From: Bradyrhizobium sp. SZCCHNS1050
Lineage (GTDB): Bacteria; Pseudomonadota; Alphaproteobacteria; Rhizobiales; Xanthobacteraceae
DNA: 64,000 nt
Direction of reading: 5' to 3'
Assembly: GCF_032484785.1 (NCBI RefSeq)
Contig: NZ_JAUETR010000001.1
Coordinates: forward strand, 1,550,001 to 1,614,000
Within the stretch, counting starts at the first letter, position 1. Every line of letters begins with the position of its first letter. The notes beneath the pieces are model-generated. The model had not been told where the DNA came from, did not search any database, and worked only from the letters and a program-made list of their open reading frames with translations. Of this stretch, positions 40,241 to 61,990 are shown piece by piece. A program made the position numbers and the translations under genes.

Positions 40241-40249
40241 CGGAAGACG

Positions 40250-41161: not shown

Positions 41162-42403
41162 CTATCGCGCTGGTGTCGTCGGGCATGCGATCGGTTCATA
41201 TTTGAAGCCAGCTGGCTCCGTGCATTGCCGAATGCCCTTGGCTAACGTCGCGCTCTTCTTCAGCTCGGCCAGCATATCTTTAGTAAAATAGGGCTGTTCG
41301 CACTCGAGCTGTTCGGCTGTCATCCCCGGCGCGCCAACGCAGGCTTTCTCCAGTTCCTCTACCTTCAGGCCGGTGACGCCCTTGAAGCTGACGCGTGAGA
41401 TCGTTGCGTGGTCGAACTCTGCTCCGGTGAGCGTAGCGCCCGAGAAATCGGCACCTTGGATGTTGGCGTAGGAGAAATTTGCGTCCGTGAGGTTAGCATC
41501 GATGAAATGCGTGACGTAATGCCGTCGCTCGTCTCCATTCCACGTGCCCCGACACCGCGCGGGCCGCGTGTCATCCTCGGCCGGTTCGTTCAGGCGGTTG
41601 CCGATTGCCGTGCACCAGCCAGGGTTCTGCCAATCGCCCGCCTCGATGCCGATGAATTCCGCCCCCTGCATTTCCGCCTTCACGAAATTGGCGCGGTGCA
41701 TCTTCGACGCCGACATGCGCGTATGGCCCAGACCTTTGACAACGCCCCATTCGTCTTGCAGGTCGAGGCCGACGTAGCAGCCGTGTTCGAGGTCAAAATG
41801 CTTTCCGGTCGGATCGTCCTGCGCTTTCCGCTCGCCGATGGCCCTCATCGCGAGTTGAATAGATCCGTCCAGTTTGAAACCCGGCTGGCGGTACTTTTCG
41901 CCGGAGCAGAGCTTGTCTGAGGCCGTCTTGACATAGGACGACAACGTATCGAATACGGCCCGATGGTAGGATCGGTCGCTTCGCGCGACAAAGGTCAGGA
42001 CATGGATCGCCTCCGCCCGCGCGGGCTCCGAGCCAGCCGTCGCATCCGTCGCCAGCAGTGGCTTGATATTTGAGGCAAACAGCTCGGCTTTTTTCTGGTT
42101 GAACGCGTCTTCGGTCCCGCGGATGCCCTGCAGGCTCGTGATGACGGTCGCGAAGACGGCGAGGCCCCCTAGCGTCTGTACGACCGCTGATCGGACCTTG
42201 GATCGCATCTCGATGATCTTGCCGAGGTCCTCCGGCGGAATGGGAACGAGCCTGCCGTCGGCACCCACCGTGCGATCGATGGGCACCGCATAGACCGGAA
42301 CGAGAATAATGAGGGTGATCGAAACGACCACATAGAACGCAATCGAGGTGAGGAGGACATCCACCGGGATGTACAGGCCCCACAGTGTCAGCCCTGCGTC
42401 CAT
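41162..42403 (-). CDS. Membrane-anchored pentapeptide-repeat protein (413 aa)
   Basis: Two membrane helices open the protein (VLLTSIAFYVVVSITLIILV at 14-38 and AVVQTLGGLAVFATVITSLQ near 73-92), placing the remainder on one side of the inner membrane. Residues 230-345 carry a broken pentapeptide array: ANFVKAEMQGAEF, then ANLTDANFSYANIQGADFSG and ATLTGAEFDHATI, the A(D/N)LXX right-handed helix. The C-terminus has spaced cysteines. It is the last of three same-strand genes with an S1/P1 nuclease and a PLD protein (gaps 39 and 64 bp), so likely co-transcribed. Role in the trio unknown; anchor or immunity protein are possible. Confidence 0.82.
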   Translation of the reverse strand: MDAGLTLWGLYIPVDVLLTSIAFYVVVSITLIILVPVYAVPIDRTVGADGRLVPIPPEDLGKIIEMRSKVRSAVVQTLGGLAVFATVITSLQGIRGTEDAFNQKKAELFASNIKPLLATDATAGSEPARAEAIHVLTFVARSDRSYHRAVFDTLSSYVKTASDKLCSGEKYRQPGFKLDGSIQLAMRAIGERKAQDDPTGKHFDLEHGCYVGLDLQDEWGVVKGLGHTRMSASKMHRANFVKAEMQGAEFIGIEAGDWQNPGWCTAIGNRLNEPAEDDTRPARCRGTWNGDERRHYVTHFIDANLTDANFSYANIQGADFSGATLTGAEFDHATISRVSFKGVTGLKVEELEKACVGAPGMTAEQLECEQPYFTKDMLAELKKSATLAKGIRQCTEPAGFKYEPIACPTTPAR

Positions 42404-42442
42404 CGCTCACCTATGTCTGTGTTGCGAGCTCATCAAGCGGCA

Positions 42443-43255
42443 TCAATCTGCGAAGACACTATCGAGCAGATGCGCAAGGCGCACGCCCGCCTTTTGCAAG
42501 CGCTCCCGGATGATGACGTCGCTCTTTGCCAGATACGCCGCATCGATCGTCACGCTGCCACTGTCAGGTGGATCGCAGGATTTCCCATGGAAGGTGCAAT
42601 AGCCGGTTTCGGCTGCCTCGCTGATGGCGAAGGATTCGTTCGCCCAGTCGTGAGGATCGGACGCATTCCACTCGGCGATTTGCTCGTCCGTGATCGCGTC
42701 GAACAGCTTGTCGGCCGCAAGCTTCACATCCGATCCGACCGCGTGCACCACGAGGCAATTGTCCCAGGCGGAATGAAGATTCCGGCTACAGGCGCCCGAG
42801 ACGTCGATGGTGTTTCCGCCACGATCATCCGCGAACGAGACATGCAGCGGCTGGTGGACATCGCCGACCCAATGGCCCAGCGACTTAAGCGCGATCAGGC
42901 GGTCGGCGGTTTTGGAGGCCTTCGAGGCTACGTTCTCGGCATCGTTGAGAATAGCCGTTACGACGCATTCGCTCGCGCCTCCGCAGTCATCCGCGGTCAG
43001 TGGCTTGCCGTCACGGGGCAGATTGAGGAAGTGGCGCGGCGGGTGGATGCGCGGGTGGTCGGGGAAGATGCATGAATCCGCGAATGTATCGAATTCCGAT
43101 CCTGATTTGATCAGTTTTCGAACAGCCGCACGCGTGTCGGGCTGAGCGAGGCGAAAGGCAATCTCGCAGACGATCTTGTGCCCCTCATCACCCCACGCGG
43201 CGGCCTGGCCGCAAAGCGCCGCCCATAGGATCACAGCAAACGAAAGAAGCCGCAT
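42443..43255 (-). CDS. S1/P1-type zinc nuclease, secreted (270 aa)
   Basis: A single-strand-specific nuclease of the S1/P1 family. Residues 1-20 are a signal peptide (MRLLSFAVILWAALCGQAAA) and the mature protein begins with Trp, whose amino group is a zinc ligand in this family. The other zinc ligands are in place: WGDEGHKIV, FADSCIFPDH, PPRHFLNLP, LGHWVGDVHQPLHVSFADD and LHSAWDN. The start is fixed by the signal peptide. It would act in the periplasm or outside. Few bacterial operons pair it with a PLD enzyme; here the PLD gene is 64 bp upstream and a membrane pentapeptide gene 39 bp downstream. Confidence 0.9.
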   Translation of the reverse strand: MRLLSFAVILWAALCGQAAAWGDEGHKIVCEIAFRLAQPDTRAAVRKLIKSGSEFDTFADSCIFPDHPRIHPPRHFLNLPRDGKPLTADDCGGASECVVTAILNDAENVASKASKTADRLIALKSLGHWVGDVHQPLHVSFADDRGGNTIDVSGACSRNLHSAWDNCLVVHAVGSDVKLAADKLFDAITDEQIAEWNASDPHDWANESFAISEAAETGYCTFHGKSCDPPDSGSVTIDAAYLAKSDVIIRERLQKAGVRLAHLLDSVFAD

Positions 43256-43319
43256 GATACATCTCCCTTCGAGAGAAATAGTCGGATTTTGATCGCTCCT
43301 GCGATGGCCGCTCGGCGCC

Positions 43320-44996
43320 CTATTGCCCTGAGAAATAGAGGCGCCTGAGGGTTCGGTCCGTCCCCTTCGCAAAATAGCTGGCGCTCGGCCGTTCGCCGTC
43401 GATCCAGTTTGGATTGTCGATCAGGTATTTCCGCAAAAGAGCGGCGGCGGGCGTCTGATTGTCCTTGAACGAGAGCGATTCCCGGAAGGCATAGTGGGAG
43501 AAGAGCCGCATGAACTCCCCAAGATAAATATCCGCGAGGATTTCGTTGCCCTGGATCACCAGCATGTTTTCGTCGTTGGTGATGGCGGACGCATCGGAAA
43601 AGTTCGCCGACCCCACAACGATGACCGGGTTGGGACCGAGAGGATCGGAGATCATGTACTTGGTGTGCACATAGAGTACATGCTGCTCATCGGTGATCTT
43701 GTCGATCTCCGCAAGCCAACGATCGAAGTTATTGAGTTCGACCTTGTGCCCTACTGAAACGACCGTGTTGGGCAGCTTCCGAATACGGTCAATCTCGGCC
43801 GATTGCTGTTTCATCGTCTTACCGTTGCCCTTCTTCTCCATGAGGGCAAAACGCAGCACATCGTCCTCGCGATCGTAGACGTCGACGAAACGGCCGTTCA
43901 TGCCGAAGGCAAAGGTCATGAAGAGAGCCCGCTCGCTCTTGCCGGCAATCTTCGCGTACCAGTCCATCGCGGCAAGCTCGGTCTGCGGCGAGAATACGGG
44001 CGTGACCTCCTTGTCCCAGGGATCCGCCGGCACGGGCGTCGCTTCGTCGTTGGCTTCGGCCGTGGGTTTCTTGGTCAGGTCCTGATCCAGCAACGTCCAG
44101 TACTCGAAATACTTCTCCGCGATGGCGGCGTCGCGCACGATATGGGCATTGTTGGAATGACCATAGATGCCGTTCTCGCTGAGATTGGTCGAGCCGGTCC
44201 AAACCTGTTCTGATGTCTCGTCTTTGCGGAGAACCAGAAACTTGTTGTGTGCGAACTGCCCGGTATGGATGCGCGGCTTGACCATCTTGCCAACGCCGGC
44301 CCCCTCCATCGCCTCCCGGTTTTTGTCGCCTTGCGTTTTTCCGTCGTAAAGGATTTTGACCGTCGCGCCGCGCTTCTTGGCCGCTTTAAGCGCAGTGTAG
44401 ATCTCCTTGTTCTTGAATTCGAAGAACGCGCCGTAGAGTTCGTCGCCATCTCCTGCCTGCTCGATAAAGGTTTCGAGCCCCTCGATCAGGCCGCGCGAAA
44501 GCCAGTCGAACGCAGCTTGGCCGACCTCGTCGGGCGTCCTATTCTGAAAGCGACGTGCATATTCCTGGGACGCGACGGCCCCGCGGTTGAAGAACACGGC
44601 GTGCTTGCCGATTTTCGTGCCTTCGGTTTTGACCTTCAGCGAAACGTCGGGCCCGTCTGTCAGTGCCGTCGGCGTCCCGCAGCGCGGGACAATGCGATAG
44701 GTGTACTCGTGGACCTCCTCGACGGTATAGTCCGACCATTGGAAGGTCTGCAGCGGATGTTTGTAGGAGGTGACGGGGACCCCAGGCGCCGGGTTCGGTT
44801 CGACAGCTTGGAATGTCTTCATGCCCGGCAGCCAGATGACTTCGCCGTCCGAGTGACGGGTTCGTTGGATGGCGAACCCTAGAACCCTGTCCTTCCGGAT
44901 AGAGGCGGCTGGATAATCCCATCCCAGCAGCACAACGTGGCTACCAGCGATTGCAAGAGCGGGAAAGGGATCGGTTGGCTTGCTACTTTTACGCAT
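43320..44996 (-). CDS. Phospholipase-D-superfamily protein with two HKD sites (558 aa)
   Basis: The first ~120 residues are a beta-rich, fibronectin-like domain (FAIQRTRHSDGEVIWLPG, then YTVEEVHEYTYRIVP). Then come two PLD repeats: the first FAHNKFLVLRKD with TGSTNLSENG has H and K but Arg at the usual Asp place; the second HTKYMISDPL with VGSANFSDAS is complete. So the active site is near-canonical. I start at the ATG giving MRKSSKPT; the ATG at 45080 would add a hydrophobic leader (WGFLFLFCLNSFW) and make it membrane-attached. First gene of the PLD/S1-P1/pentapeptide set; nuclease or phospholipase activity is open. Confidence 0.85.
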   Translation of the reverse strand: MRKSSKPTDPFPALAIAGSHVVLLGWDYPAASIRKDRVLGFAIQRTRHSDGEVIWLPGMKTFQAVEPNPAPGVPVTSYKHPLQTFQWSDYTVEEVHEYTYRIVPRCGTPTALTDGPDVSLKVKTEGTKIGKHAVFFNRGAVASQEYARRFQNRTPDEVGQAAFDWLSRGLIEGLETFIEQAGDGDELYGAFFEFKNKEIYTALKAAKKRGATVKILYDGKTQGDKNREAMEGAGVGKMVKPRIHTGQFAHNKFLVLRKDETSEQVWTGSTNLSENGIYGHSNNAHIVRDAAIAEKYFEYWTLLDQDLTKKPTAEANDEATPVPADPWDKEVTPVFSPQTELAAMDWYAKIAGKSERALFMTFAFGMNGRFVDVYDREDDVLRFALMEKKGNGKTMKQQSAEIDRIRKLPNTVVSVGHKVELNNFDRWLAEIDKITDEQHVLYVHTKYMISDPLGPNPVIVVGSANFSDASAITNDENMLVIQGNEILADIYLGEFMRLFSHYAFRESLSFKDNQTPAAALLRKYLIDNPNWIDGERPSASYFAKGTDRTLRRLYFSGQ

Positions 44997-45080
44997 GGAC
45001 CGGCTCAATGCTTTCCAGAATGAATTCAGGCAGAATAGGAACAGAAAGCCCCAAGCAAGCCCGTCAAGATGGGCCCTCAC

Positions 45081-47000: not shown

Positions 47001-47321
47001 ATGACAGTCAAGACAAGACCAATCTCGATCCGTCTCGCAGCGAGTGAGATAGAGCAGATTCGCACACGCGCTCACAGGCTTTCAGCAAACATCACTGGCG
47101 TAGCCCGCGACTTAATCCGTACCGGACTTGCCGGCGGGGACAACAAGGCGCTCGCCGATCGCTTGATGCGGATCGAGCGTCGTATCGCCGTACTCGAACA
47201 GCAAAGCCAGCAAACGTACGTGCAGACTCAATCGACCGACAAAGCAGCGCGTGATCTGCTTGCGATGTTCGAGGCGCTTCTGAAGGCCCTGACCGGCGAA
47301 AGCTCTGGGAGGACAGCATGA
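47001..47321 (+). CDS. RHH mobilisation accessory protein, MobC-like (106 aa)
   Basis: A small DNA-binding relaxosome protein. The N-terminus (RPISIRLAASEIEQIRTRAH) is a ribbon-helix-helix and the second half (RLMRIERRIAVLEQQSQQTY) a coiled coil. Its stop overlaps the start of the coupling protein gene by ATGA, so the genes are translationally coupled. It should bind near oriT and help the relaxase. Confidence 0.78.
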   Translation: MTVKTRPISIRLAASEIEQIRTRAHRLSANITGVARDLIRTGLAGGDNKALADRLMRIERRIAVLEQQSQQTYVQTQSTDKAARDLLAMFEALLKALTGESSGRTA

Positions 47322-49129
47322 CCCGACGACTGCGGATCATTAGCTTTCTCTCTGCAATGGGTTGCTTTGCGGTCGCGGCGAGCATCTCGTATCTCGGATT
47401 TGAGGTCTGGCCGCCGAGCGCCACGCTGGCAGACGGAAGGAGCGCCGAATTCCAGCCAGCAGACATTCAAGCCTGCATCAGAGGGCGTGGCCTGGCCTGG
47501 CTAGCAGACCGCTCCGGCGAGGCCTATTGGCAGGCTTGCCGAGACTGGCTCGCGCGATACCAAGCTCTGAGCGGCTTCGAGCTTCGTTTCTGGAGCGTGA
47601 TCGGCGCCAGTCTTGCGGGCCTGCTGGCGCTGTTCGGCTTTGCGCTGAGTCTTCGGTTAGACTCGGTCTCGCTCAAGGTCCTTCGCGGAGCACGGCTGCA
47701 AACCGGCCGTCAAGGTCTGAAGGCGTTCGCCCGGGCGGCCGCCGCGGAGTGCCAGGTCCATGGCAAGGGCGTTGAGTTGATGCCATCGGTGCCCCTTGGG
47801 CGCGAGCGGGAGGCGCGGCATTTCCTGATCGTGGGCAGCGTCGGCGGCGGTAAGACGCAGACAATGCTTCACCTGATCGATGAAGCGCTCTCTCGCGGAG
47901 ATGGCCTCCTGGTGCTCGACACGAAAGGCGACATGATGGGCGGGCTCCCAGCCGATGGGGACCCCCTCCTTGTCGCGCCCCATGATCAGCGATCTCTAGT
48001 CTGGGACGTGGCAGCCGACTGCAGCATCAAGCAGGACGCCCGCGAGCTAGCCGCCCGCTTCATCCCGCCAAGTTCCGATCCGATGTGGTCCCAGGCGGCA
48101 CAGGAGATCCTCGTCGCCTGTATCGTCTATCTCCAGTCGACCCGGGGCAAGGAGTGGGGGTGGGGTGATCTGCAACGAGTCGTGACCGCTGATGTCGGCA
48201 CGCTCGCAGCGTACGCCAAGGATCACAATCCCAATGCGCTGCGACTGCTCGACCAGCCGGAGAGTAAGACCACGCTCAGCATCCTGACCACCTTCCAGAC
48301 CCACATGCAGATCGTCTCGGTCCTGGCGGAGGCTTGGTCCGCCCCATCGGCGCGGCGGTTCTCGATTCGCAATTGGCTGCATCACCCAACACGGTATCGG
48401 CCATTGATCCTGCAGCACGACCCCGGGTATCCCGAGCTATCGCGGATCTGGATCGGCAGCATGCTCGGCCTGCTCGCCTCGGCGGTTGGAAGTCCCACCC
48501 TGGCCGAGAGCCGCGAGCGGCGGGTGTGGCTGTTCCTGGACGAATTCCCGCAGCTGCCGCCGATCAAGCAGTTCCCGACCTTCCTCGAGCTGGGCCGCTC
48601 CAAGGGCGTTGCGGTCGTGATCGGAGCTCAGGACACGGCCCAGATCCGCGCCGTCTATGGTCAGGACCAGGCCAAGTCTTGGTTCGGCATGACCGGCACC
48701 AAGATCATCACCCGCATCAACGCCAGCGAAGCGGCTGAGGACATCAGCCGCCTCATCGGCGAGCAGGAGGTCGAGCGGAGAACGAAGAGTTCAACCCATA
48801 CCGGCGGCAAGACCAGCGTCACCGAGAGCACCCAACGCGAGATGCGCCGAGTGATCACGGCATCCGAGCTTGGCTCCCGCCTTGGACCGACCAAGGACGG
48901 CGTCCGAGTCCTGCTCATCGGTCTTGGCGAAGACGTCTACGAGCTGGAGCTGCCCTATCTCAAGCTGCGTCAATTGCGCGAGCCGATCATGCCGGCTGAT
49001 TGGACTCGCCCCTTGTCCCGGGTGAGGCTGTCGGACCGCGCCGACGATGACACTCATCCAACTTCACCTCCTCCCCCTGCCCGCCTTTCAAAGGAGTTGG
49101 CGAAGCAGATCCTCAAACGGCGAGAGTGA
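47318..49129 (+). CDS. Type IV coupling protein (TraD/TrwB-like, 603 aa)
   Basis: The inner-membrane ATPase that brings the relaxase-DNA complex to the secretion channel. Two membrane helices open it (IISFLSAMGCFAVAASISYL and FWSVIGASLAGLLALFGFAL); Walker A is VGSVGGGKTQTMLHL near residue 179, Walker B WLFLDEFPQLPP near 408, followed by IGAQDTAQIRAVYG. Full length for the family and intact. No mating-channel (VirB) genes are in the window, so transfer would depend on genes elsewhere. Confidence 0.9.
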   Translation: MTRRLRIISFLSAMGCFAVAASISYLGFEVWPPSATLADGRSAEFQPADIQACIRGRGLAWLADRSGEAYWQACRDWLARYQALSGFELRFWSVIGASLAGLLALFGFALSLRLDSVSLKVLRGARLQTGRQGLKAFARAAAAECQVHGKGVELMPSVPLGREREARHFLIVGSVGGGKTQTMLHLIDEALSRGDGLLVLDTKGDMMGGLPADGDPLLVAPHDQRSLVWDVAADCSIKQDARELAARFIPPSSDPMWSQAAQEILVACIVYLQSTRGKEWGWGDLQRVVTADVGTLAAYAKDHNPNALRLLDQPESKTTLSILTTFQTHMQIVSVLAEAWSAPSARRFSIRNWLHHPTRYRPLILQHDPGYPELSRIWIGSMLGLLASAVGSPTLAESRERRVWLFLDEFPQLPPIKQFPTFLELGRSKGVAVVIGAQDTAQIRAVYGQDQAKSWFGMTGTKIITRINASEAAEDISRLIGEQEVERRTKSSTHTGGKTSVTESTQREMRRVITASELGSRLGPTKDGVRVLLIGLGEDVYELELPYLKLRQLREPIMPADWTRPLSRVRLSDRADDDTHPTSPPPPARLSKELAKQILKRRE

Positions 49130-49132
49130 GCC

Positions 49133-50019
49133 ATGGTAGCCTCGATCTCCGCTCGCGGGAACGCCGCTTCGGCCTCGCGCTACTACGGTCATCTGCAGCG
49201 CGACGACTACTACAGCCGGGATGGCGATCCACCGGGCCGCTGGGCCGGCCGAGGGGCCGAGCGGCTCAGCCTGGACGGACCCGTCACGCGCATCGAGTTC
49301 GACGCTGCGCTGCGTGGGATCGATCCCAAGACCGGTGAGCGGCTGGCGCAGCTTGGCGGCCGCGGCCGCGAGCACGCGGCTGGCTGGGACATGACTTTCA
49401 GCGCACCTAAATCGGTCTCAGTGCTCTGGGCGCTCTCCGATGCTCCAGAGCGCCAGATCATTGCCCAGGCGCACCGTTCGGCGGTCCTCACGGCGACCGC
49501 TCAACTGGAAGCCACCGCCGGCTGGGCCAGGCGAGGCCGGGCCGGAACCACCCGAGAGCAGACCGCGGGGCTGCTGATGGCGCAATTCGATCATCACACC
49601 AGCCGCGAATCCGACCCGCAGCTGCACACCCACACCTTCGTTTTCAACCTGGCCCCGCGTCGCGATGGCAGCTGGGGCGCCATCGTCAGCCGTGAGCTCT
49701 ACAAGGCCCAGAAGCAGGCTGGGGCCACATATCGCCGAGCGCTTGCCTCGGAACTGGAACGGCAAGGTGTTCGGCTGGAGCAGCAGAAGGACACGTTTCG
49801 CGTGGCGGCCATCCCGCGCCACATCGAGCGCGCATTCTCCAAGCGGCGCCAAGCCATCGAGGAAGCCGCGAAAGCCCACGGCTATAGCACGCCAAAGGGA
49901 ATGGAGCTGGCAACCTTGCGCACGCGCCGCCCCAAGCGGGATGCCAAGCTCAGCGAACTCGCCAACCATTGGCGAGCCGAGGCCAAGGCGCTGGGCTTTG
50001 ATCTCGGCAGGAGCCGCCA
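49133..50019 (+). pseudogene. MobF (TrwC-like) relaxase, N-terminal nuclease domain only
   Basis: The relaxase domain is well preserved: ASRYYGHLQRDDYYSRDG with the catalytic tyrosines, MTFSAPKSVSVLWALSD, and FDHHTSRESDPQLHTHTFVF with the metal-binding histidines. Normal similarity ends near ALGFDL (about residue 295); the open frame continues to 50260 with unrelated Arg/His-rich sequence. The SF1 helicase part, which makes MobF relaxases about 1000 residues long, is missing. It may still nick DNA but would not support normal conjugation. It begins 4 bp after the coupling protein gene. Confidence 0.82.
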
Positions 50020-51045
50020 TCACATACATACCACGGCTGGCGGCCGTTCTCACGTTGAGCTTGCGGGAGGGCTGGGCCAAGCCCGCTCGCCTTTCGGCCA
50101 ACCAGCACCGGCGGCAGCCCGGGGCGCTGTGAGGCCCCAGCATCAAAGCGCCGCCCAACTCGGCTTTCGCCTCGGCCAGTTGCTCCGCACGATAGACCAG
50201 TCGGCCGGCATGTCTGGGATCAGGATCAAGCTCCGCCAACATGAGCATGAGCGGGATTGACCGAGAGTCGGGAAGACGATTGAACCCTCCTGGGTCAGCG
50301 GCGGCCTCTGGATCGCTGCAAGCGGAGTAGCCGGCCGGAGCAGCCTCGCCCGTCCGAATCGATCCGCGGCCACTGAGAAACAATTTGCGAGCTTCGAGTT
50401 CAGATCGCGACAGCTGACACTTTGGGACAGCTAGACCTGAACAAACTCATCACAGCTTGAGAATGAGACCGGAATTTCGTTCGTATACGCGTCCAAGCGC
50501 ATGCAAGGTATTGACCACCTTGATCGATCGATCCTTCGAGAACGCAGCTGTATTCGCTCGATCCTTGTCTTGTAAACACCGCAGAACAGGATCTTTTTGT
50601 TTAATCCCAATGAGATAGCCGCATGCGGCTCGCGAAGCGTCTGCACCACAGGTGCATAGGGTGTGAAAAACTTCCTCCTTCTCGTCCCTGAACCTTACCT
50701 TGGCTTTTCATTGCCCTTCCCCGCTCGTGAAGTAGTCCAATCTCGGCCGCCAGAATGCGCAACTATTGCAATGGACGCGTTGATGAGGCCGGCGATCACG
50801 CCGCAAGCCATGGGCATTCCGAGTGCGCAATTCGTACAGCCTCGTTGCAGAGAATCGGCGAGAGTGCCAGCGTCGCCGCGACGTACGGGGATGGTATATC
50901 TTGGCAATCTTTCTGCAAACCGACTGCGGCTCAGGGCAACCCATCAATGCTAAAAATCGCGATCCCATAAAGTGCGGCTACGGGTATGCAGCGCGCCAAA
51001 GGCCAAGGTTGAAGCTGCTTCTAGCGCTTCGCGGCCGCGGCGCGG
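50020..51045. other. Scarred DNA after the truncated relaxase, no gene seen
   Basis: About 1 kb. Composition drops from G+C-rich to average around 50390. Several 60-100-codon frames exist on both strands but none shows a motif or good start. The join near 50020 is the deletion point of the relaxase gene. Confidence 0.45.
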
Positions 51046-53768: not shown

Positions 53769-54815
53769 ATGACACTCACAGCGATCGATCTCTTCAGCGG
53801 CTGCGGCGGACTATCTCTGGGCTTGAAAAAGGCCGGATTTCACGTGCTCGCAGCGGTCGAGCTGGATAAACTCGCGGCCGAGACCTACGCCCAAAACCTC
53901 AAAAAGACACTCGTTCTGCGCTCCGATATCCGCCGGATAACGCCATCCGCGATGATGAAAAAATGCGGCCTGAAGCGAGGCGAACTCGACCTTCTGGCCG
54001 GCTGCCCGCCTTGCCAGGGATTTTCGACGCTCCGGACGTTGAACGGACACGCCGACATCGACGAACCCATGAACGATCTCGTCTTTCAGTTTCGCCGGTT
54101 CGTCCGGGGACTTCTGCCGAAGACCATCATGATGGAGAACGTCCCCGGCCTGGCCAAGGATGACCGGCTCAAGTCGTTCTGCCGCTCGCTGAGGGCTCTC
54201 GGCTATTCCGTGAAATTCGACGTCATGGATGCTGCCGACTTCGGCGTACCCCAGCGACGCCGCCGAATGATACTGATCGGTTCGCGCCTGGGAGATGTGG
54301 CGTTCGCACCAAAGCGTAAGACGGCAGCGACGGTGCGCGACGCAATCGGCTCGTTACCAGCGCCCGGCACCGACGACGATGTGCTGCATGTCCGCGGCCC
54401 GAAGCGCGCCGCCAGGGTCGAAGCCCTGATAAGAAAGATTCCCCGAAACGGCGGAAGCCGGACCTCGCTCGGCGCGAAGCATCAGCTTCGCTGTCACAGG
54501 AAGTCCGACGGCTTCAGAGACATCTACGGTAGGATGGCCTGGGACAAACCCGCTCCGACGATCACGGGAGGGTGCATCAATCCATCCAAAGGAAGGTTTC
54601 TCCATCCCGTCGCCCACAGGGCTATCACCCTGCGCGAGGCTTCGCTCTTGCAGAACTTTCCGCGCCGGTATCGCTTCCCGCTTTCCCAAGGCACATATGC
54701 GGTAGCACAGATGATCGGAAACGCCTTTCCGCCCGCCTTCGCCGCATGCCACGCACGGAAGTTGGCGCGGCACATCCAATCGAGCGGCAAATCACGGGGC
54801 GAGAAAGGCGTTTAG
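53769..54815 (+). CDS. DNA cytosine-5 methyltransferase (348 aa)
   Basis: A complete C5 methylase. Motif I is DLFSGCGGLSLGLKKAG, motif IV AGCPPCQGFST with the catalytic Cys, motif VI MMENVPGL, motif VIII FGVPQRRRRMILIG, motif X YAVAQMIGNAFPP. The target-recognition region (about 195-290) includes HQLRCHRKSDGFRDIYGRM. The frame is open to 53583 upstream, but I start at MTLTAID, right before motif I. Its 3' end overlaps the convergent vsr gene by 24 bp. It would set the cytosine methyl mark that Vsr repairs and that the operon behind Vsr may read as self. Confidence 0.93.
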   Translation: MTLTAIDLFSGCGGLSLGLKKAGFHVLAAVELDKLAAETYAQNLKKTLVLRSDIRRITPSAMMKKCGLKRGELDLLAGCPPCQGFSTLRTLNGHADIDEPMNDLVFQFRRFVRGLLPKTIMMENVPGLAKDDRLKSFCRSLRALGYSVKFDVMDAADFGVPQRRRRMILIGSRLGDVAFAPKRKTAATVRDAIGSLPAPGTDDDVLHVRGPKRAARVEALIRKIPRNGGSRTSLGAKHQLRCHRKSDGFRDIYGRMAWDKPAPTITGGCINPSKGRFLHPVAHRAITLREASLLQNFPRRYRFPLSQGTYAVAQMIGNAFPPAFAACHARKLARHIQSSGKSRGEKGV

Positions 54816-55199
54816 CTTCCGCTTGAGCCTTTCGGGATCCCGTAGCTGGCATTCCCAAAGAATTAGTACGCTCCAACCTTCCGCGCGCAACGTTCGTACG
54901 ATCCGCCTGTCTCTTCGTATGTTGTCGTCGAGCTTCTGCGACCAGAACTCGCTTCGCGTAGCCGGCCGTTTCGCGCGTCGGCATTTCGGATGCTGATGCC
55001 AAAAGCACCCGTGCACGAAAATGACCCGCCTCCTGCCCTTGAAGACGATATCGGGCTTTCCCAGGACATCCTTCGAATTCAGCTGGTATCTGATTCCGAG
55101 ATCGGTAAGAGCCCGCCGCACGATCCTTTCGGGGCTCGTGTCCCTTCCGCGCACGCGAGACATCAGCGCGCTTCGCTCGGCGGCACTAAGCTTGTCCAC
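54792..55199 (-). CDS. vsr: Very short patch repair endonuclease (135 aa)
   Basis: A Vsr-type mismatch endonuclease that nicks at T:G mismatches from deaminated 5-methylcytosine. LSAAERSALMSRVRGRDTSP is the N-terminal signature, GKPDIVFKGRRRVIFVHGCF the catalytic D and metal site, WHQHPKCRRAKRPATRSEFW the zinc-binding His/Cys part, and GWSVLILWECQLRD the end. Full length. It converges on, and overlaps, the C5 methylase gene, as expected for a dcm-vsr pair, but is also 9 bp behind the preceding minus-strand gene, making it the last gene of an eight-gene operon. Confidence 0.93.
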   Translation of the reverse strand: MDKLSAAERSALMSRVRGRDTSPERIVRRALTDLGIRYQLNSKDVLGKPDIVFKGRRRVIFVHGCFWHQHPKCRRAKRPATRSEFWSQKLDDNIRRDRRIVRTLRAEGWSVLILWECQLRDPERLKRKLNAFLAP

Positions 55200-55208
55200 G
55201 AAACACCC

Positions 55209-55883
55209 TCACGCCGAGGACCCGTCCAGAATGAAGCCCGATGATACGGGATTCCAGGTCCGGTCGGCCCAATCTATCGTCGCGCGACCCGCGATTCCCG
55301 CCACGAAGGCCGTGCGCAAACTTTCGATCTGTCCCACATTCGAGTCTAGCCTCACGTTGACGGAGCAGGTGTGCTGTAGCGCGTCGTAGTTCAGGCGATA
55401 GTCGTTTCCCGTCGCTTGTAGGCTGGTGACGAGCCACATCGCGAGTCGGTACGCCGCCCGGTCCGCGCAGGCCAAATCGGGATCCGTAAGAAGCAGCGAC
55501 TTGATCTGCGCAACCACGCCCGGCGCCCCGGTCGTCAGGAAACCTCCCAAATCCGATCTGACCACGCGCGCAAACCGCTTTTTCCCTGTCAACCCACTGT
55601 GGAATCTCTTGACCACCATTACGTCCCCGTTTCCGGCGAGTGCCAAAGTCGCGAAAGCATCCCACAGTTGATCGATTCCCGACTCCAAGCGCATGAGGTC
55701 GCCCCCGTGGACGCAACTCTCCCATGCCAGCGACCAGGGGTCCTCCATCTCGCAGAGGGAAGACACCGTTCTACGCGCACCCATGGAATCTACGACCACC
55801 GTGTCCGCGTGAAAGGCACCAAAGGCGGCGCGCGTTCCGATGAAATGCTCGTAGACCACCGCATTCGAAGGAGAAACCGACAC
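55209..55883 (-). CDS. Unknown protein, gene 7 of the HerA-PLD operon
   Basis: Not recognised. It has the look of a compact alpha/beta protein: AFGAFHADTVVVDSMGARRT, GNGDVMVVKRFHSGLTGKKR, then helices LLLTDPDLACADRAAYRLAM and a C-terminal strand TCSVNVRLDSNVGQ. The start is uncertain: no ATG lies between the stop of the previous gene (55927) and the conserved-looking part, and I take the GTG at 55883; the frame is open upstream to 56087. vsr follows after 9 bp. A conserved partner of the ATPases is inferred from the operon. Confidence 0.65.
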   Translation of the reverse strand: MSVSPSNAVVYEHFIGTRAAFGAFHADTVVVDSMGARRTVSSLCEMEDPWSLAWESCVHGGDLMRLESGIDQLWDAFATLALAGNGDVMVVKRFHSGLTGKKRFARVVRSDLGGFLTTGAPGVVAQIKSLLLTDPDLACADRAAYRLAMWLVTSLQATGNDYRLNYDALQHTCSVNVRLDSNVGQIESLRTAFVAGIAGRATIDWADRTWNPVSSGFILDGSSA

Positions 55884-55926
55884 GTCCCGAGCAGACAGTC
55901 GACCGTGCCGATCGACGCCGACCGCG

Positions 55927-56547
55927 CTAACAGTCCCCGCTTTCGACGTTTCGATCCAGCCGCAGCAGGTCAGTAGTGTAGAGTGGGTCGTCAATACCGC
56001 CGATGGCATTATAGGCGTCTTTATTCCGTTCGATGCTGAAGCGGTCGATGAAATCCGCCAGGCCGATTCTGGCGAGCCGCGCCGCAAGATAGTAGGCCCT
56101 CGTCCAATCGCCCTTGCTCCCTCCCGGATAGAGCCGGTCGCGAATTTCCGAAATGTTGAGCTTTCCGGACGGCGGGATCATATCCAGACATTTCCGGAGA
56201 AGCACTGCGAATTCCGATCTTCCCTCGGTCGCGATGACTATCCTGAAGGGTTTCCCTCCCTCGCTCTCGCAGACGACCGCGTCCAGACGCCCGGACCTCA
56301 ATTCGGCTCCCAGCAACGCGCTGAACGCCCTCTGCGAGATCTCATCGCGGGCTCGCACGCGCACGAGATAGCGTATCAGGCCGGGTACGAGCGGACCGTG
56401 CTCGCTGACCACCGCGAGTATGTCGGATCGAATGGCTTCGATCTTCGATTCCAATTCCGCTTCGCCGTATGCGTAGAGATCGATCCCGCCGAACCGGCGC
56501 TGCGCGACCGGCCTGGCGCCCTTGGGCGGCAGCCGCGACGTCGACAA
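55927..56547 (-). CDS. Unknown 206-residue protein, gene 6 of the HerA-PLD operon
   Basis: Not recognised. Largely helical; residues 30-75 (ELESKIEAIRSDILAVVSEH, then PGLIRYLVRVRARDEISQRA) and 130-175 (GKLNISEIRDRLYPGGSKGD, then YYLAARLARIGLADF) look like two helical modules with possible winged-helix character. No catalytic motif. It begins 22 bp after the AAA ATPase gene. Confidence 0.72.
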   Translation of the reverse strand: MSTSRLPPKGARPVAQRRFGGIDLYAYGEAELESKIEAIRSDILAVVSEHGPLVPGLIRYLVRVRARDEISQRAFSALLGAELRSGRLDAVVCESEGGKPFRIVIATEGRSEFAVLLRKCLDMIPPSGKLNISEIRDRLYPGGSKGDWTRAYYLAARLARIGLADFIDRFSIERNKDAYNAIGGIDDPLYTTDLLRLDRNVESGDC

Positions 56548-56569
56548 CGCGGTCTTGGGCCGTTTCAGG

Positions 56570-57619
56570 CTACGACTCCGGCCACGACAGGGACTTCAGA
56601 AGCGATTTGGCCGCGCTCGACGAGACGAGTTCGCCCGAAAGAAGATATTCGTCGTAGATCGCGGAAAGAGCCTGCAAGATGGTCCTCGGAATGAGCCTCG
56701 CATGCGTCTCCGTGGCGATGAACTCAATCGTCTCCCGAACCGTGTCCTCCTGAAGCGGATGAAAGGCGTCGCCAGAATAGCCCGGCGGGCGGAAGCCGGC
56801 GAGGCGGTCTTCGATGAAGCTTACCGCCTCTTCGACGTTCATCTCCGGCAGCGAGATCTTCGGACGAGGACCGATGAGAGTCTTGAGTTCAGCCGGCAGC
56901 AGGTCGACCGCCGTCTTTTCCAATCTCGTCGCGGCCGCAAGCACGACGGAAAGATTCGTCGGATTTTGACTGAACAGCGAACGGAGATTCGACAGCACCG
57001 GCCAACGATTCTTTTCGGCGAGCGTTCCGATCCGCTGGAACTCGTCGAACAGCAGAACGACCCTCAATCCGTGCCGGCCGAGACTTCCCAGCAGCTCGGC
57101 GAGCAAATCCGCCGCGCGCACATCGCTGTCTATGCGTGCCTGAAGACCGACGACCGTCTTGAGATCCCGCAGATTCACGGATCCCGCGAAAAGCCATTCG
57201 AATGCGAGCCCACGTTCATAATCGTTTCCGTGTTGGATCACGCGGGCGACCCGCTTTAGCTGCGAGGAGTTCGACAGATTTCCGTCCTTGCCGATGACCT
57301 CCGCGAGCCGGGTCCAGGGCAGCCGCGGCATGATCCTCTGGTAGAGATCCAGAAAGCCTCTCATGCGCTCCGGCACCTCGACGAACACGGGTATCGACGA
57401 AGGGGCCTGCCGTTGCACCGCGTGGGCGATGTAGAAGAGCACATGCGACTTGCCGCTGCCAAAGCTCGCCCATATCAGGTCAAGCGTGGAGTCGCTCCGC
57501 ACGACAAACGACCGCGCCAACCGGTCGACCTTCGACTTCAGCTCGGGCCGCCCCGCCCACGTCGCTCCCGTCTCGGGCGTCGCGGTCAGCAGAAACGGCG
57601 ATGTCGTGAAGCCCTCCAT
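56570..57619 (-). CDS. AAA/ORC-like ATPase, gene 5 of the HerA-PLD operon (349 aa)
   Basis: A P-loop ATPase of the STAND/ORC kind. Walker A is IWASFGSGKSHVLFYIAHAV near residue 52, Walker B LRVVLLFDEFQRIGTLAEK near 187, sensor 1 in LSVVLAAATRLEKT, and a helical lid with PEMNVEEAVSFIEDRL. The start MEGFTTSPFLLTA is four bases after the stop of the preceding gene. The frame upstream is the shadow of that gene. Three different ATPases in one operon suggest a staged sensor-loader-motor arrangement; that is inference. Confidence 0.85.
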   Translation of the reverse strand: MEGFTTSPFLLTATPETGATWAGRPELKSKVDRLARSFVVRSDSTLDLIWASFGSGKSHVLFYIAHAVQRQAPSSIPVFVEVPERMRGFLDLYQRIMPRLPWTRLAEVIGKDGNLSNSSQLKRVARVIQHGNDYERGLAFEWLFAGSVNLRDLKTVVGLQARIDSDVRAADLLAELLGSLGRHGLRVVLLFDEFQRIGTLAEKNRWPVLSNLRSLFSQNPTNLSVVLAAATRLEKTAVDLLPAELKTLIGPRPKISLPEMNVEEAVSFIEDRLAGFRPPGYSGDAFHPLQEDTVRETIEFIATETHARLIPRTILQALSAIYDEYLLSGELVSSSAAKSLLKSLSWPES

Positions 57620-57623
57620 CTCG

Positions 57624-58925
57624 TCAAGCTCCGCTGCGCTTCCACAGGGCCGCGTCGATCGAGATGTACTCCGCCCTTCTCGTGGCACCCGCGGATAAGC
57701 GCGCTCGCGCGGGAAGCTCAACCGCATAACCCTCCAGACTGCGCCGGGCAGCCCCAAAGGTCACCGGCTTTCCGATGCGAAGTGAAAGCGCGGCCACCCC
57801 GTTCGCGACGACGTCCAGCGGAAGCGGCGACATCGGCCTCGACAGCACCGGCAGCAGGTCCGAGAGGAGCGGCTCAAGGTCGTTCGGAGCGATCCGGTCG
57901 TCCGACGCGCGCTCGCCCGTAAGGACGTCGACGAGATGCCGGTCGATCCATTCCGCAGCGCTCGCGGACGTTGCGAGCGCATGCTTGGCACGAAGGAGGT
58001 TTTCGGTCTGCCTGTACTTGTATTCGTACTGTTCGGAAGGCTCCTTCTTGAGCAGACCGAGATCGACGAGGTTTTCCAGCCGCGCCGCGATGCGGTGCCA
58101 GGCCGTCGACGTGATCTGATCGTCCCCGTCCCTCTTAGGCTTCACCTCGCGCCACAGAGAAAACAAATCCTGCCGGCGACCTTGCGACAGATCGCGCGAG
58201 GCTTCCGCCTTCTCGGACAGGAGGGTGACGGCCCTGACGTAGAGGCGCATCGCCGACTGCTTGCGCAAGGTTTCGTTCTCGACGGCGAGAAGATCGACCA
58301 GGGTCGCGAACATGTCGAAATCCTCACGGACGATCAGGAAGCCGAAGATCAGCCGTTCCTGGCCCAGAACGTACGGGTTCGCGTCCGGAGTGCCGACGAC
58401 GTCGAAAAACTTCCCGATCAACTGCCCGAAGTTCGTCAGAGCGCCAGAATCGCTGAAGAGGCCCAGCATGCCGCCCCAGTCGAACAGATGCGACAGTCCC
58501 GTCTTCGAGCCCCGCTTTCCCCCGAACGATATCGCACCGACCTTCGAAGGCACGCCGGGATCAGCAAGGCTGACGTCCTGCCATTGTCCCCTAATCTCCC
58601 CGTCCTCCGACGCCACCGTCTCGCCCGGTTTGCCGGGATCGACGACCCGAAGCGCCGGATAGCGGTATTCGGTCTTCCTGTCCTGTACGCCCTTCGCGTT
58701 CGCCTCCACGGGGCTCAGACCCTTCACCCTAAGATAGCGGGCGAACGCCGGCTTCATCTCGTCCCGCACAGGTACGAGCTCGCAGAATTTCGATGTCACG
58801 GCCCGCTCGAACCTGAACGCGGCCCCCCCGTCCGTCGTGGCGACGCGACAGATCGCCGAGAGATGACCGGCACGCAGCATGAATTCATCGAGACCGGCGA
58901 GCGCCCGTCCTTCCAGGGGGATCAA
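57624..58925 (-). CDS. Unknown 433-residue protein, gene 4 of the HerA-PLD operon
   Basis: Not recognised. The frame overlaps the HerA gene stop as TTGA, so I choose the TTG at 58925; an ATG at 58880 is the alternative. The middle part (LIFGFLIVREDFDMFATLVD, LLAVENETLRKQSAMRLYVR) is helical, and residues 260-320 (TAWHRIAARLENLVDLGLLK, KEPSEQYEYKYRQTENLL) look like a winged helix. The C-terminal 120 residues may hold a second one (KPVTFGAARRSLEGYAVELP). A DNA-binding adaptor between the two ATPases is a guess. Confidence 0.75.
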   Translation of the reverse strand: MIPLEGRALAGLDEFMLRAGHLSAICRVATTDGGAAFRFERAVTSKFCELVPVRDEMKPAFARYLRVKGLSPVEANAKGVQDRKTEYRYPALRVVDPGKPGETVASEDGEIRGQWQDVSLADPGVPSKVGAISFGGKRGSKTGLSHLFDWGGMLGLFSDSGALTNFGQLIGKFFDVVGTPDANPYVLGQERLIFGFLIVREDFDMFATLVDLLAVENETLRKQSAMRLYVRAVTLLSEKAEASRDLSQGRRQDLFSLWREVKPKRDGDDQITSTAWHRIAARLENLVDLGLLKKEPSEQYEYKYRQTENLLRAKHALATSASAAEWIDRHLVDVLTGERASDDRIAPNDLEPLLSDLLPVLSRPMSPLPLDVVANGVAALSLRIGKPVTFGAARRSLEGYAVELPARARLSAGATRRAEYISIDAALWKRSGA

Positions 58926-60322
58926 GCTTCGTACCCTCCGTGCGCCGAAATCCGCGGCCGAACGGCGGCGACGCAGACGCGCGGAAGCGTGGGAGCGTTT
59001 CCGCACGAGAACGTCACGATGCCCGGCGTCAGCGATCGCAGCAAAGCGTCCACTCCCACCTTCTCACCATCGATCCGCGCTTCCGACGGCGGCGGAGACC
59101 GCAGGTTCTCCAGCGCCACCGCCGCGTCCTTCGGCGCCGTTAGCTGATGCACTATCAGCGTCTCGACCTGGGAGGTCAGCCGACTGTCGAGCGCGCTCGG
59201 CTGCTGGGTGGCGAGAGCAAGCGACAGTCCGTAATTTCTTCCTTCCTTCGCGTACTTGATGAAGGCGTCCCTCGCGATCGAGCCGCGGTCGGAGCCGGCG
59301 AGCACATGCGCCTCGTCCAAGAGCACCCAGGTCCGAGGTATGTTCGACGAGATCGTCGCCTTGAGCTCCTCCGTCTCGGGTCCGGTCAGTTCGGGCTGCA
59401 AATCCAGCCTCTTCTGCGCGAAGGAGGCGTCCCGCCGCTGCCGCAGGATCCTTCTCAGCAATACCGACACCATCACGTTCTTGAGATCGTCCTGCGCCCG
59501 TCCAAGCATGAGCACACTGACGCGGAACGGCTGGAGCAGCGCCGACAGATCCGTCGGTGTGCCCTGGAAAAGAGGGAGATCGCGAAAAGTCTCCAGACGC
59601 TGGCGGACGGCGCGGACGGTGTTGTCGCTGTAATTCACCGAGAAGGAGGGATCGCCCCCGAGGCAAGCCAGGAGCGCGTCGAAATCGTACGCCGTCGAAG
59701 GCGGCACCGAGCCGCCCGAACGGTCGCTGTAGCCGTAGAGCGACACCCGACCGATGAGGTCGGTCAGCAACATTCCCCGCGGTTCGGTCAGCATGTCGAT
59801 GTCGAAGAGCGCGCCCCAATCGCTCGACTCGAGGTCGGAGGCGCCGATCGCGAGCGAGCGCACGGACAGCGGGTCGATCTCGGGTCTCTCGAAGCCAGCC
59901 GGAATCCATACGTCGACGTTGAGAGGCTGTGACTTCATCCCTCCCTTCCGCATGTTGGCGAACTGGCGGCGAAGCTCCGCGGACCCCTCGTCCACCAGAG
60001 GGATTTGGGTGCTCCAGAAAATATCCATGATGTCGAGAACCAATGCGGCCCGCGGAGTCTGGATGCATGCGATCGCGGTATCGCCCATTCCAGCGGCCAG
60101 ACCTTCGGCGATCACGCCCAGCGAATAGGACTTGCCGGTTCCCCGCTTTCCGAAGATTGCCACGACCTGCTCGCCGGTGATGTCTAGCCAGAGCTTCCTG
60201 CGCGGCCCCGTCTCCGCCAAGGTGCCGAGCAGCACTTTGTCCTTGCCGCGACAAGAAGGGTCGCCCGCGACGATGTCGCCGGCGGTCTTGGAAATAGGGG
60301 GGTCAAGGGCAAAAGACGTCAT
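58922..60322 (-). CDS. HerA-like ATPase, gene 3 of the operon (466 aa)
   Basis: A HerA/FtsK-fold hexameric DNA translocase. VVAIFGKRGTGKSYSLGVIA near residue 60 is Walker A; RTWVLLDEAHVLAGSDRGS near 340 Walker B; FIKYAKEGRNYGLSLALATQ and QPSALDSRLTSQVETLIVHQ are the HerA sensor and arginine-finger region. The N-terminal beta barrel (HAS domain) is short. One base separates it from the preceding gene. HerA proteins work with nucleases (NurA, SIR2, DUF4297); here the obvious nuclease is the PLD protein two genes upstream. Confidence 0.88.
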   Translation of the reverse strand: MTSFALDPPISKTAGDIVAGDPSCRGKDKVLLGTLAETGPRRKLWLDITGEQVVAIFGKRGTGKSYSLGVIAEGLAAGMGDTAIACIQTPRAALVLDIMDIFWSTQIPLVDEGSAELRRQFANMRKGGMKSQPLNVDVWIPAGFERPEIDPLSVRSLAIGASDLESSDWGALFDIDMLTEPRGMLLTDLIGRVSLYGYSDRSGGSVPPSTAYDFDALLACLGGDPSFSVNYSDNTVRAVRQRLETFRDLPLFQGTPTDLSALLQPFRVSVLMLGRAQDDLKNVMVSVLLRRILRQRRDASFAQKRLDLQPELTGPETEELKATISSNIPRTWVLLDEAHVLAGSDRGSIARDAFIKYAKEGRNYGLSLALATQQPSALDSRLTSQVETLIVHQLTAPKDAAVALENLRSPPPSEARIDGEKVGVDALLRSLTPGIVTFSCGNAPTLPRVCVAAVRPRISAHGGYEA

Positions 60323-60323
60323 T

Positions 60324-61487
60324 CTACATCCTCGCCTTCCGCAGGGAATCCGGGCCGATCAGCTTGAGATCGTCCTTCATCGCCCGAAACCCGACGTCGT
60401 CGAGCTTGTCGCATATCTCACGCGGCTTGGCCTGCTCCTGGTTGATGTTCCAATACTCGAGAAACTCCCGCCAGCCGTCGTCGGTGAAGGGATATCTGTC
60501 CCAGTCGTAGTCCGCCGAACTGATCTCGCCCGCGGCGACCGCCGCCTCGACCGCCGGCCGGTCTACGAACGCCTCGCGCAGCTTTGCCAGGAAGGTCGTG
60601 ACGTCGGTTGGATCGAGGTTCTTCAATTCTATTAGATTGTTCGATCCGAGCCTGCTGATGATCTGCGCGTCCGAAATGACGGTCGGAATGTTCCTCTGCC
60701 CCTTGCCGCTCAACGTATAGATGAAGCCGAAGGCATCGTTGTTGTCGTCGAAGATCGCCCTGTTGGCCGCTATCCAGTGACGTCGGGTCGCATCGTCGTT
60801 GTCGATGTCCTCAAGCTTCGCCGCTTCGTCCGCGATGAATACGAGTTGGCGACTCTCGACCGCCCGCACCAGGATCCCGCAGGCAAGCAGGACGCCGTAG
60901 AAGTCGTCGCTCTGTACGAGCGGTTCGCCGAGCCCGATGCTGGCCGCCTCCTTCGACCGCAGCCCCCTCAGGAAATCGAAGGACGTCAGCACCGCGGGCG
61001 GCGGCGTCTCGTCGGGAGACGCCAAAAGCAACTTGCCGAAGGCCTCCGCAACGTTTCCGCTGACACCTTTCGCCTTCAGATCGGCCACCACGTGCTTTCC
61101 GGTAGCACCTTGGTAGCCGTGAACCAACCTAATCAGTTCCCTCAGGCCGATCCGTTCCAAGAAGGGGCCCACGAGCTGATCGAACCGCGACTTGCTGGTG
61201 ATGTCGCCGAGCTCGACGATCACAGTCTTCGCCGGGTATTCTAGTAAGTTCTGCTCGAACCACCAAGAGACGTGATTTATCGAATGGGTCTTTCCGACGC
61301 CCCAATCCCCATACAGCACCATCTTCACGGTCTGCGCGGCGGCGAAGCGCCGCTCGATGCTCATGACGATCTCGCCGGAGATCTGGCTTTCATGGCAAAA
61401 CACGGATTGCCTGTCGCGCTGAACGTTTGGCTTGAAACTCGAACGTCCCGACGACAGATGAAACCACTCGGCTAGGGTTCGCGGCAT
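60324..61487 (-). CDS. P-loop ATPase, gene 2 of the operon (387 aa)
   Basis: Walker A is MVLYGDWGVGKTHSINHVSW near residue 60 and Walker B RQLVFIADEAAKLEDIDNDD near 215, followed by FIYTLSGKGQRNIPTVISDA as a sensor region. It resembles the AAA ATPases of BREX/Dnd-type restriction modules in outline only. I start at MPRTLAEWFH, 8 bp after the PLD gene; the longer frame to 61784 is antisense-like filler over the PLD gene. The C-terminal part (YPFTDDGWREFLEYWNINQE) is helical. Confidence 0.83.
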   Translation of the reverse strand: MPRTLAEWFHLSSGRSSFKPNVQRDRQSVFCHESQISGEIVMSIERRFAAAQTVKMVLYGDWGVGKTHSINHVSWWFEQNLLEYPAKTVIVELGDITSKSRFDQLVGPFLERIGLRELIRLVHGYQGATGKHVVADLKAKGVSGNVAEAFGKLLLASPDETPPPAVLTSFDFLRGLRSKEAASIGLGEPLVQSDDFYGVLLACGILVRAVESRQLVFIADEAAKLEDIDNDDATRRHWIAANRAIFDDNNDAFGFIYTLSGKGQRNIPTVISDAQIISRLGSNNLIELKNLDPTDVTTFLAKLREAFVDRPAVEAAVAAGEISSADYDWDRYPFTDDGWREFLEYWNINQEQAKPREICDKLDDVGFRAMKDDLKLIGPDSLRKARM

Positions 61488-61495
61488 CTTTGCTC

Positions 61496-61990
61496 CTATT
61501 CCAGCGGGACGACGTCGTCGTGCGTCCGCAGCGTCGACGCGTACGACAACAGTTCGGATATCACGGCCGAGGTCGGATCGTCGCGGCCGGACCTGCTGCT
61601 GCGAAATTCGACCGCGAGCTCCTGGTTCTGCTCGTCCGCCGCCGGCGTGAGATTGGGGGAGCCGAATATCGCAGCCCGAAAACCGTTGCACTCGACGATG
61701 TAGAGCTTCGAATGAAGCGCCGCCGAACCGAATACTTCGTGGTTCGAATGTCGCCTCAGGCTCTGAATCGCGCGGAGGTGCCATACTGCCACGGGGGGTC
61801 TGGTGACGACGATCAGACGACAGGGCGTTCCGTTCAACGCCTGGACGATCCTGAAGACGGGATCACTCCCGGAGTCCGCCGAACCGATCCACGGAGCGAT
61901 CAACCAAACCCTGTATAGGCGCCGACTGTTCGCCTGGATGAGATCGGCGAAAGCGCTCAGCACGCCGTCGGTAATTATCGTGATCGACAT
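61496..61990 (-). CDS. Single-domain PLD-superfamily nuclease, gene 1 of the operon (164 aa)
   Basis: A small phospholipase-D-fold protein, like BfiI/Nuc-type nucleases that act as dimers. LHSKLYIVECNGFRAAIFGS with PNLTPAADEQNQELAVEF gives H-x-K, the G-S-x-N, and the downstream Glu; the Asp after H-x-K-x4 is Glu here. The N-terminal half (RRLYRVWLIAPWIG, then CRLIVVTRPP) is the usual first strand pair. I start at MSITIITDG. First gene of the eight-gene operon and the most likely DNA-cutting effector. Confidence 0.82.
   Translation of the reverse strand: MSITIITDGVLSAFADLIQANSRRLYRVWLIAPWIGSADSGSDPVFRIVQALNGTPCRLIVVTRPPVAVWHLRAIQSLRRHSNHEVFGSAALHSKLYIVECNGFRAAIFGSPNLTPAADEQNQELAVEFRSSRSGRDDPTSAVISELLSYASTLRTHDDVVPLE

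Follow-up and report, generated by a model that had tools for sequence, protein, structure and literature searches.

The Locus and Its Genes

The window considered here, a stretch of 64,000 nucleotides (nt) from Bradyrhizobium sp. SZCCHNS1050 (NZ_JAUETR010000001.1, positions 1,550,001 to 1,614,000; coordinates without a locus name are window positions), carries eight tightly packed genes on the minus strand (61990-54792), which encode a PLD-superfamily nuclease, an AAA+ ATPase (ATPase 1), a HerA-type translocase, a 433-amino-acid (aa) protein, an ORC-like AAA+ ATPase, a 206-aa protein, a 266-aa protein, and a Vsr mismatch endonuclease. They are faced by a C5 DNA methylase gene on the plus strand (53769-54815). 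The first four proteins form a core that is found with four kinds of DNA modification module, two of which were seen once each; this is the most striking feature of the set and was absent from a preliminary description of the locus. The packed minus-strand arrangement facing a C5 methylase, which that description had already reported, is borne out by the gene models and by the spacings along the operon, which are, starting from the PLD gene, 8, 1, −4, 4, 22, −83, and 9 nt (negative values denote overlaps). The 3′ ends of the Vsr and methylase genes overlap by 24 nt. A promoter and terminator scan gave no signal exceeding that of shuffled sequences.

All nine window proteins were scanned with the hidden Markov models (HMMs) of PADLOC v2, Pfam, NCBIfam, and PHROGs, the last 235 residues (from residue 32) being used for the 266-aa protein. 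The matches over the cut-off were PLDc_2, HerA/DUF87, AAA_22 and BrxC_BrxD (both in the ORC-like ATPase), Vsr, and DNA_methylase. The PLD nuclease (164 aa, 61496..61990, minus strand, as are all genes down to Vsr) matches PLDc_2 with an E value of 3e-6 and has a single HxK...GSxN motif. ATPase 1 (387 aa, 60324..61487) shows a Walker A motif, GDWGVGKT, and a Walker B motif, VFIADEA, and its matches to P-loop HMMs are sub-threshold. The HerA-type translocase (466 aa, 58922..60322) matches DUF87 (1e-6) and mad8 (1.9e-15) and ends in a C-terminal RPRISAHGG motif. Its gene overlaps by 4 nt with that of the 433-aa core protein (57624..58925), for which all HMM matches are sub-threshold. The ORC-like ATPase (349 aa, 56570..57619) matches AAA_22 (1.5e-8) and BrxC_BrxD (1.6e-6). 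A motif scan found Walker motifs in all three window ATPases. The three distinct motors of the preliminary description are more aptly described as a single HerA translocase and two AAA+ ATPases that are related to each other.

The gene for the 206-aa protein (55927..56547) overlaps by 83 nt with that for the 266-aa protein (55209..56009), and neither product has any match in the HMM scans, not even a sub-threshold one. The latter had been put at approximately 225 aa, but its homologues place the start codon, an ATG, at 56009, which gives 266 aa. The Vsr endonuclease (135 aa, 54792..55199) matches TIGR00632 (8e-42) and PDB entry 1cw0 (3.5e-30), and the C5 methylase matches PF00145 (1.7e-57) with the motifs FSGCGG, PPCQG, ENVP, and QRRRR. 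In family searches of the 7.6-Mb window genome, these two proteins were the sole matches found to PF03852 and PF00145, respectively.

Recurrence of the Nine-Gene Set

When 84,980 species were scanned, each represented by one genome, three further loci were returned, from Acidobacteria (L002, genome G647), Verrucomicrobiota (L003), and Bryobacteraceae, also of Acidobacteriota (L004). All nine genes are present in each of them. The co-occurrence of all eight families of the operon, which the preliminary description had left for a search of other genomes, was thereby found, with the uncharacterised genes accompanying the ATPases in 3/3 loci. The order PLD, ATPase 1, HerA, 433-aa, ORC-like ATPase, 206-aa, and 266-aa is identical in the window and the three loci; Vsr and the methylase adjoin the set in all four of these C5 loci, in varying position and orientation. 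A single reading frame in L002 encodes the ORC-like ATPase fused to the 206-aa protein. Because all nine genes recur in three loci of two other phyla, they can be regarded as one conserved unit, and their association is not due to chance.

The 433-aa protein is rare. Scoring of the 8000 best candidates from a database of 5.8 billion proteins gave 34 matches including itself, and the protein was present in one of 265 genomes of the genus and one of 397 drawn from the order, each being the window's own, and in one of 396 genomes drawn around G647, which was G647 itself. Contig-size matching was used as an indirect measure of co-occurrence: 11 of the 34 contigs of the 433-aa family are identical in size to a contig of the 266- or 206-aa family, one of these matches being the window's own contig, whereas jittered sets gave a mean of 0.12 and a maximum of 2 (n = 2000). 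Among contigs of at least 9 kb, 10 of 18 are matched in this way and 8 are without such a partner. A seemingly frameshifted HerA/433-aa copy was observed in P0017, a Bradyrhizobium relative, and the system may therefore decay in some strains.

A Core Shared among Unrelated Modification Modules

Relatives of the core were sought with ATPase 1 profiles in 385 genomes of the class, 240 of Verrucomicrobiota, and 297 around the L002 genome, which gave new full-length relatives in three genomes (G1589, G673, and G770). A HerA profile gave six matches in viral contigs, one of them full-length (L030). The other five, which span 46-111 residues, were left out of the locus count, as were two weak and partial matches to the ATPase, in G1061 and G1621, where no other core gene was found, and plasmid records with HerA (78) or ORC (1) matches. 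Three plasmid loci with HerA/ORC matches were fetched, and no PLD gene and no 433-type gene was found in them. The count comprises eight core loci: the window, from which the analysis started, and seven that were found through the similarity of core proteins, not through modification genes.

The genes for PLD, ATPase 1, HerA, and the 433-type protein stand in that order in all eight core loci, including L017, L025, L026, and L030, and a DNA-modification gene or module adjoins the core in every one of them: a C5 methylase with Vsr in four, an Eco57I-type N6 methylase in two, an N6/N4-type methylase in one, and sspABCD in one. In L017, the core is followed by the Eco57I-type N6 methylase and a PC4-domain protein, and homologues of both (56% and 41% identity, respectively) are found in L030. 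In L026, the core is followed by a PF01555 N6/N4-type methylase. The partner in L025 is sspABCD: sspD, sspC, and sspB face the core, and sspA follows behind these three on the opposite strand, with PADLOC E values of 1.5e-134, 0, 2e-106, and 1.9e-121, respectively; sspA also fits DndA (3e-118). Genes related to ATPase 1 are present in all eight loci, the L025 copy scoring as BrxC_BrxD, and a separate gene for the ORC-like ATPase is present in six, with no such gene found in the fetched stretches of L017 and L030. The overlap between the HerA and 433-type genes is exactly 4 nt in five of the seven loci in which it was measured. The link to DNA modification that the preliminary description had drawn is stronger now, because relatives of the core adjoin unrelated modification modules.

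The 433-type proteins of L017, L025, L026, and L030 are divergent homologues that occupy the same place. The L017 protein scores 36.3 bits, compared to a maximum of 2.8 in 1000 shuffles, and the L030 protein gives an E value of 4e-14; in hhalign comparisons with the 433-aa family, the probabilities are 96% for L017 and 90% for L025, whereas 12 other proteins reach no more than 1.2%. In trees of HerA and of the ATPase, the four C5 loci form one clade and the two N6 loci another, with support of 0.999-1.0, and the ORC-like sequences, of which the tree contains four, group together with support of 1.0. Whether the ATPase 1 group holds together depends on where the tree is rooted, owing to L026.

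Searches of 72,556 plasmid and 50,697 phage records gave no match for the 433-aa protein. No plasmid match was obtained for ATPase 1, the L025 ATPase, or the L025 ORC-like ATPase, nor for the L026 HerA at 1e-15; the L030 HerA had no phage match at 1e-8, and its plasmid matches were confined to Haloplanus. The 433-aa and ATPase profiles had no match in viral contigs. L030 itself, which carries the N6-methylase version of the core, is a 49.6-kb contig listed as viral, and a phage or prophage may therefore carry the core. Beside the N6-methylase version in L017 (15318-18207) lie the PC4-domain protein, a 390-aa protein, and a trypsin-like peptidase, and two genes lie upstream of the core in L025 (4099-6745), one actin/DnaK-like by eye, with no Pfam match.

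Features of the Individual Proteins

The HxK and N of the PLD motif are conserved in all seven loci scanned and are readable in the eighth, L030. Judged from this sequence, the PLD protein is likely an effector, which may act as a dimer. A HerA profile built from six relatives matches solved HerA-type helicases (best 7e-24), and the tail motif RPRx[ST]xHGG is found in all ten HerA proteins compared, including those of BRC-like and MADS-like plasmid loci.

For the 433-aa protein, the sub-threshold HMM matches are ARID (0.0096) and PDC-S02 (0.048). When 27 members of its family were compared with Pfam, six weak ARID matches were obtained, the best of 0.0096 and all under the cut-off, together with seven one-member matches, including DUF2505 (0.0002). 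In a search of solved structures, the best E values were 0.016 for the 433-aa profile and 0.47 for the 206-aa profile, with none for the 266-aa profile. Alignment of the three profiles with SspB, mad7, a BRC-like 282-aa protein, and each other by hhalign gave at most 1.5%, although these comparisons were mostly with single sequences and of limited reach. Winged helices in the 433-aa protein had been suspected by eye from conserved stretches, but Pfam, PDB, and profile tests gave them no support. We propose that the 433-aa protein could serve in DNA binding or sensing.

Genomic Surroundings

Elsewhere in the window, a DUF1156 protein lies beside an SNF2/ResIII helicase with an NOV_C domain (26673-33483), and the two look like parts of another modification-linked defence system. 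A tyrosine integrase, a TraD/VirD4-type coupling protein, and a TrwC relaxase frame are found at 34047-35189 and 47318-50260; the region that holds the locus is mobile and conjugation-related. The stretch at 37899-45080 holds an HSP90 homologue, a pentapeptide-repeat protein, and a second PLD protein of 586 aa. To the right of the window (L029, 6048-19296), a 1054-aa protein with a CHAT-like end, a 527-aa JAB+ThiF-like protein, and an SDH/ClpP-like protein were recognised by eye.

Proposed Mechanism and Alternatives

By analogy, the set is probably a modification-coupled restriction system, in which the AAA+/HerA/PLD core would attack DNA lacking the mark set by the adjoining modification module. 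Vsr is known from Dcm/Vsr pairs to repair T:G mismatches arising from deaminated 5-methylcytosine, and the enzyme encoded here may do the same. The C5 methylase would mark host DNA at its recognition sequence. The two AAA+ ATPases could form a complex with the 433-, 206-, and 266-aa proteins that loads onto DNA and inspects it, HerA would pump DNA through this complex, and the PLD protein would cut DNA without the mark, so that the mark would protect rather than trigger. The PLD/AAA+/HerA/433-aa part appears to be portable and may work elsewhere with N6-adenine methylases, an N6/N4-type methylase, or SspABCD phosphorothioation. The proposal that unmarked DNA is attacked is made by analogy with SspFGH, a system that damages phosphorothioate-free DNA and proves toxic in cells without this modification (PMC8092258; statements from this and the other two papers cited refer to the sections covered here).

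A further and more tentative possibility is that one general-purpose restriction engine, the core, has been joined in evolution to four or more self marks of different chemistry, namely 5-methylcytosine, N6-methyladenine, a second amino-methyl type, and backbone phosphorothioate. Given such pairing, the core might therefore read the absence of a mark, or a site-binding protein of its partner, and not one fixed chemistry.

Several observations weigh against the proposal of attack on unmarked DNA by one conserved unit. In the sections covered on the SspFGH precedent, a Southern blot saw no degraded phage DNA (PMC8092258). Pairing with sspABCD and with the N6/N4 methylase was seen in one locus each (L025 and L026, respectively) and could reflect chance neighbours in defence islands; the set in the window also lies among other defence-like genes. 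The L026 433-type protein is a weak match (E 7.6e-4, hhalign 19%), and the 206- and 266-aa profiles gave no match beside the non-C5 modules. The genomes of L002, L003, and L004 were all assembled from metagenomes, and the recorded methylase frame of L002 (14115-15173) contains masked letters and a stop codon, so that this copy is either broken by decay or mis-sequenced.

The same juxtaposition of core and marks could be read in the opposite sense, with the host mark or mark pattern switching the core on, as phosphorothioate does for SspE (PMC8092258), after which incoming DNA would be attacked; loss of the methylase would then silence the system and not be toxic. A general sensor of this kind could explain one core beside very different marks. 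However, the marks are chemically unrelated, so that one conserved reader seems harder to envisage than the reading of absence, and no curated mark-reading domain reaches the cut-off in the 433-, 206-, and 266-aa proteins. We consider activation by the mark unlikely. Capture of plasmid or phage DNA by HerA/FtsK during transfer or packaging, with the modification module incidental or only host-protective, appears less probable still. The same broad classes of parts (HerA, ORC-type AAA+, and nuclease) occur in the capture systems of PMC10853773, and conjugation genes lie near the set in the window, but a modification gene or module adjoins 8/8 core loci, and the published ORC-HerA sets use REase domains, with no PLD or methylase partner named in the sections covered (PMC10853773).

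It is very improbable that a solitary C5 methylase-Vsr pair merely stands next to an unrelated HerA defence operon. The varying orientation and order of the methylase among the loci would fit such independence, as would the lower identity to the window protein of the L004 methylase (35%) compared to the L004 HerA (58%) and the interruption of the L002 methylase frame, while the core frames of that locus are open. These points are countered by the adjacency in all four C5-type loci, including three that belong to two other phyla, and by the finding that the window genome has its only detected C5 methylase and Vsr at this place. If the restriction of unmarked DNA by the core is correct, self-marking and restriction are separable modules, and a change of the marking enzyme re-programs one motor-nuclease core. 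The way in which HerA/FtsK-type complexes (DndFGH, SspFGH, MADS, and BRC) read self marks could then be tested by swapping modification modules. The set also adds three protein families for which searches of Pfam, NCBIfam, PADLOC, PHROGs, and PDB gave no significant relative.

Comparison with Known Systems

The preliminary description could match the set to no named system, and the PADLOC v2 scan agrees in giving none that fits; Pfam, NCBIfam, and PHROGs likewise gave no full match of the nine genes to a named system. No description of the nine-gene set was found in the literature, with preprints and most subscription papers lying outside the search, and the set is undescribed as far as these searches show.

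The C5 methylase adjoins Vsr in the window, as in C5 restriction-modification systems with Vsr. For DISARM, Dpd, and MADS, we take the defining sets to be drmA/drmB with drmC, a DpdA-type TGT with DpdC-K, and mad1-mad8, respectively. The window PLD protein shows weak similarity to DpdK (0.0012) and DrmC (0.0055). However, none of the eight non-methylase proteins matched DrmA or DrmB, the DrmMII matches of the methylase are generic, and a DpdA-type TGT with the DpdC-K set was not found, the weak DpdK match being the only one. The likeness to MADS consists in the mad8 match of the window HerA, the same tail motif in the HerA of the MADS-like locus L011, and a match of the L017 methylase to mad2 (6e-24); unlike MADS, the window's non-methylase proteins match mad8 only, and no other mad is among the best 25 of the 64 matches of the methylase.

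Among published classes, BRC (BREX-Related Capture, PMC12839542) and the HerA/FtsK capture systems (PMC10853773) come closest to the set. BRC comprises PglZ, DUF6079, STAND, DUF4007, and HerA, with GNAT and TGT in a subset (PMC12839542). The window HerA is 29% identical, with 93% coverage, to the HerA of the BRC-like locus L009 and shares its tail motif, and an ORC/BrxC-type AAA+ ATPase and modification genes are also common to both. In contrast, the window set has a PLD nuclease, two small AAA+ ATPases, three uncharacterised proteins, a C5 methylase, and Vsr. PglZ had no match among the eight non-methylase window proteins in PADLOC and Pfam, the nuclease being PLD instead; DUF4007, DUF6079, STAND, and TGT/GNAT had none in the nine window proteins in Pfam and NCBIfam, and the 27 members scanned from the 433-aa family gave no DUF4007 match either.

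The HerA/FtsK capture systems with ORC/CDC6 carry REase/iREase and wHTH domains (PMC10853773). They are similar to the window set in combining HerA, an ORC-type AAA+ ATPase, and a nuclease: HerA with an ORC-type AAA+ is present in the window, where DUF87, AAA_22, and BrxC_BrxD are over the cut-off, although the ORC/CDC6 model itself is unmatched. They differ in that PLD, a methylase partner, and Vsr are not named in the sections covered on them (PMC10853773). In the 433-, 206-, and 266-aa proteins, Pfam gave no match over the cut-off, including to REase/iREase or wHTH domains. The word Vsr is absent from the main texts of PMC10853773 and PMC12839542, and no PLD-HerA-methylase set is named in their sections covered here.

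A parallel in proposed logic is offered by SspABCD-SspFGH and DndFGH, with a restriction module whose translocase-like subunit would damage unmarked DNA. Scans for SspF/G/H, with models confirmed for SspG and SspH, gave no match to the eight non-methylase window proteins at E 1 and none to the five L025 core proteins at E 0.001. The L025 core nevertheless adjoins sspABCD, and the window HerA gives a weak DndH match (0.0013). Without full membership in BRC, SspFGH, MADS, DISARM, or Dpd, the set resembles the HerA/FtsK systems DndFGH, SspFGH, BRC, and MADS.

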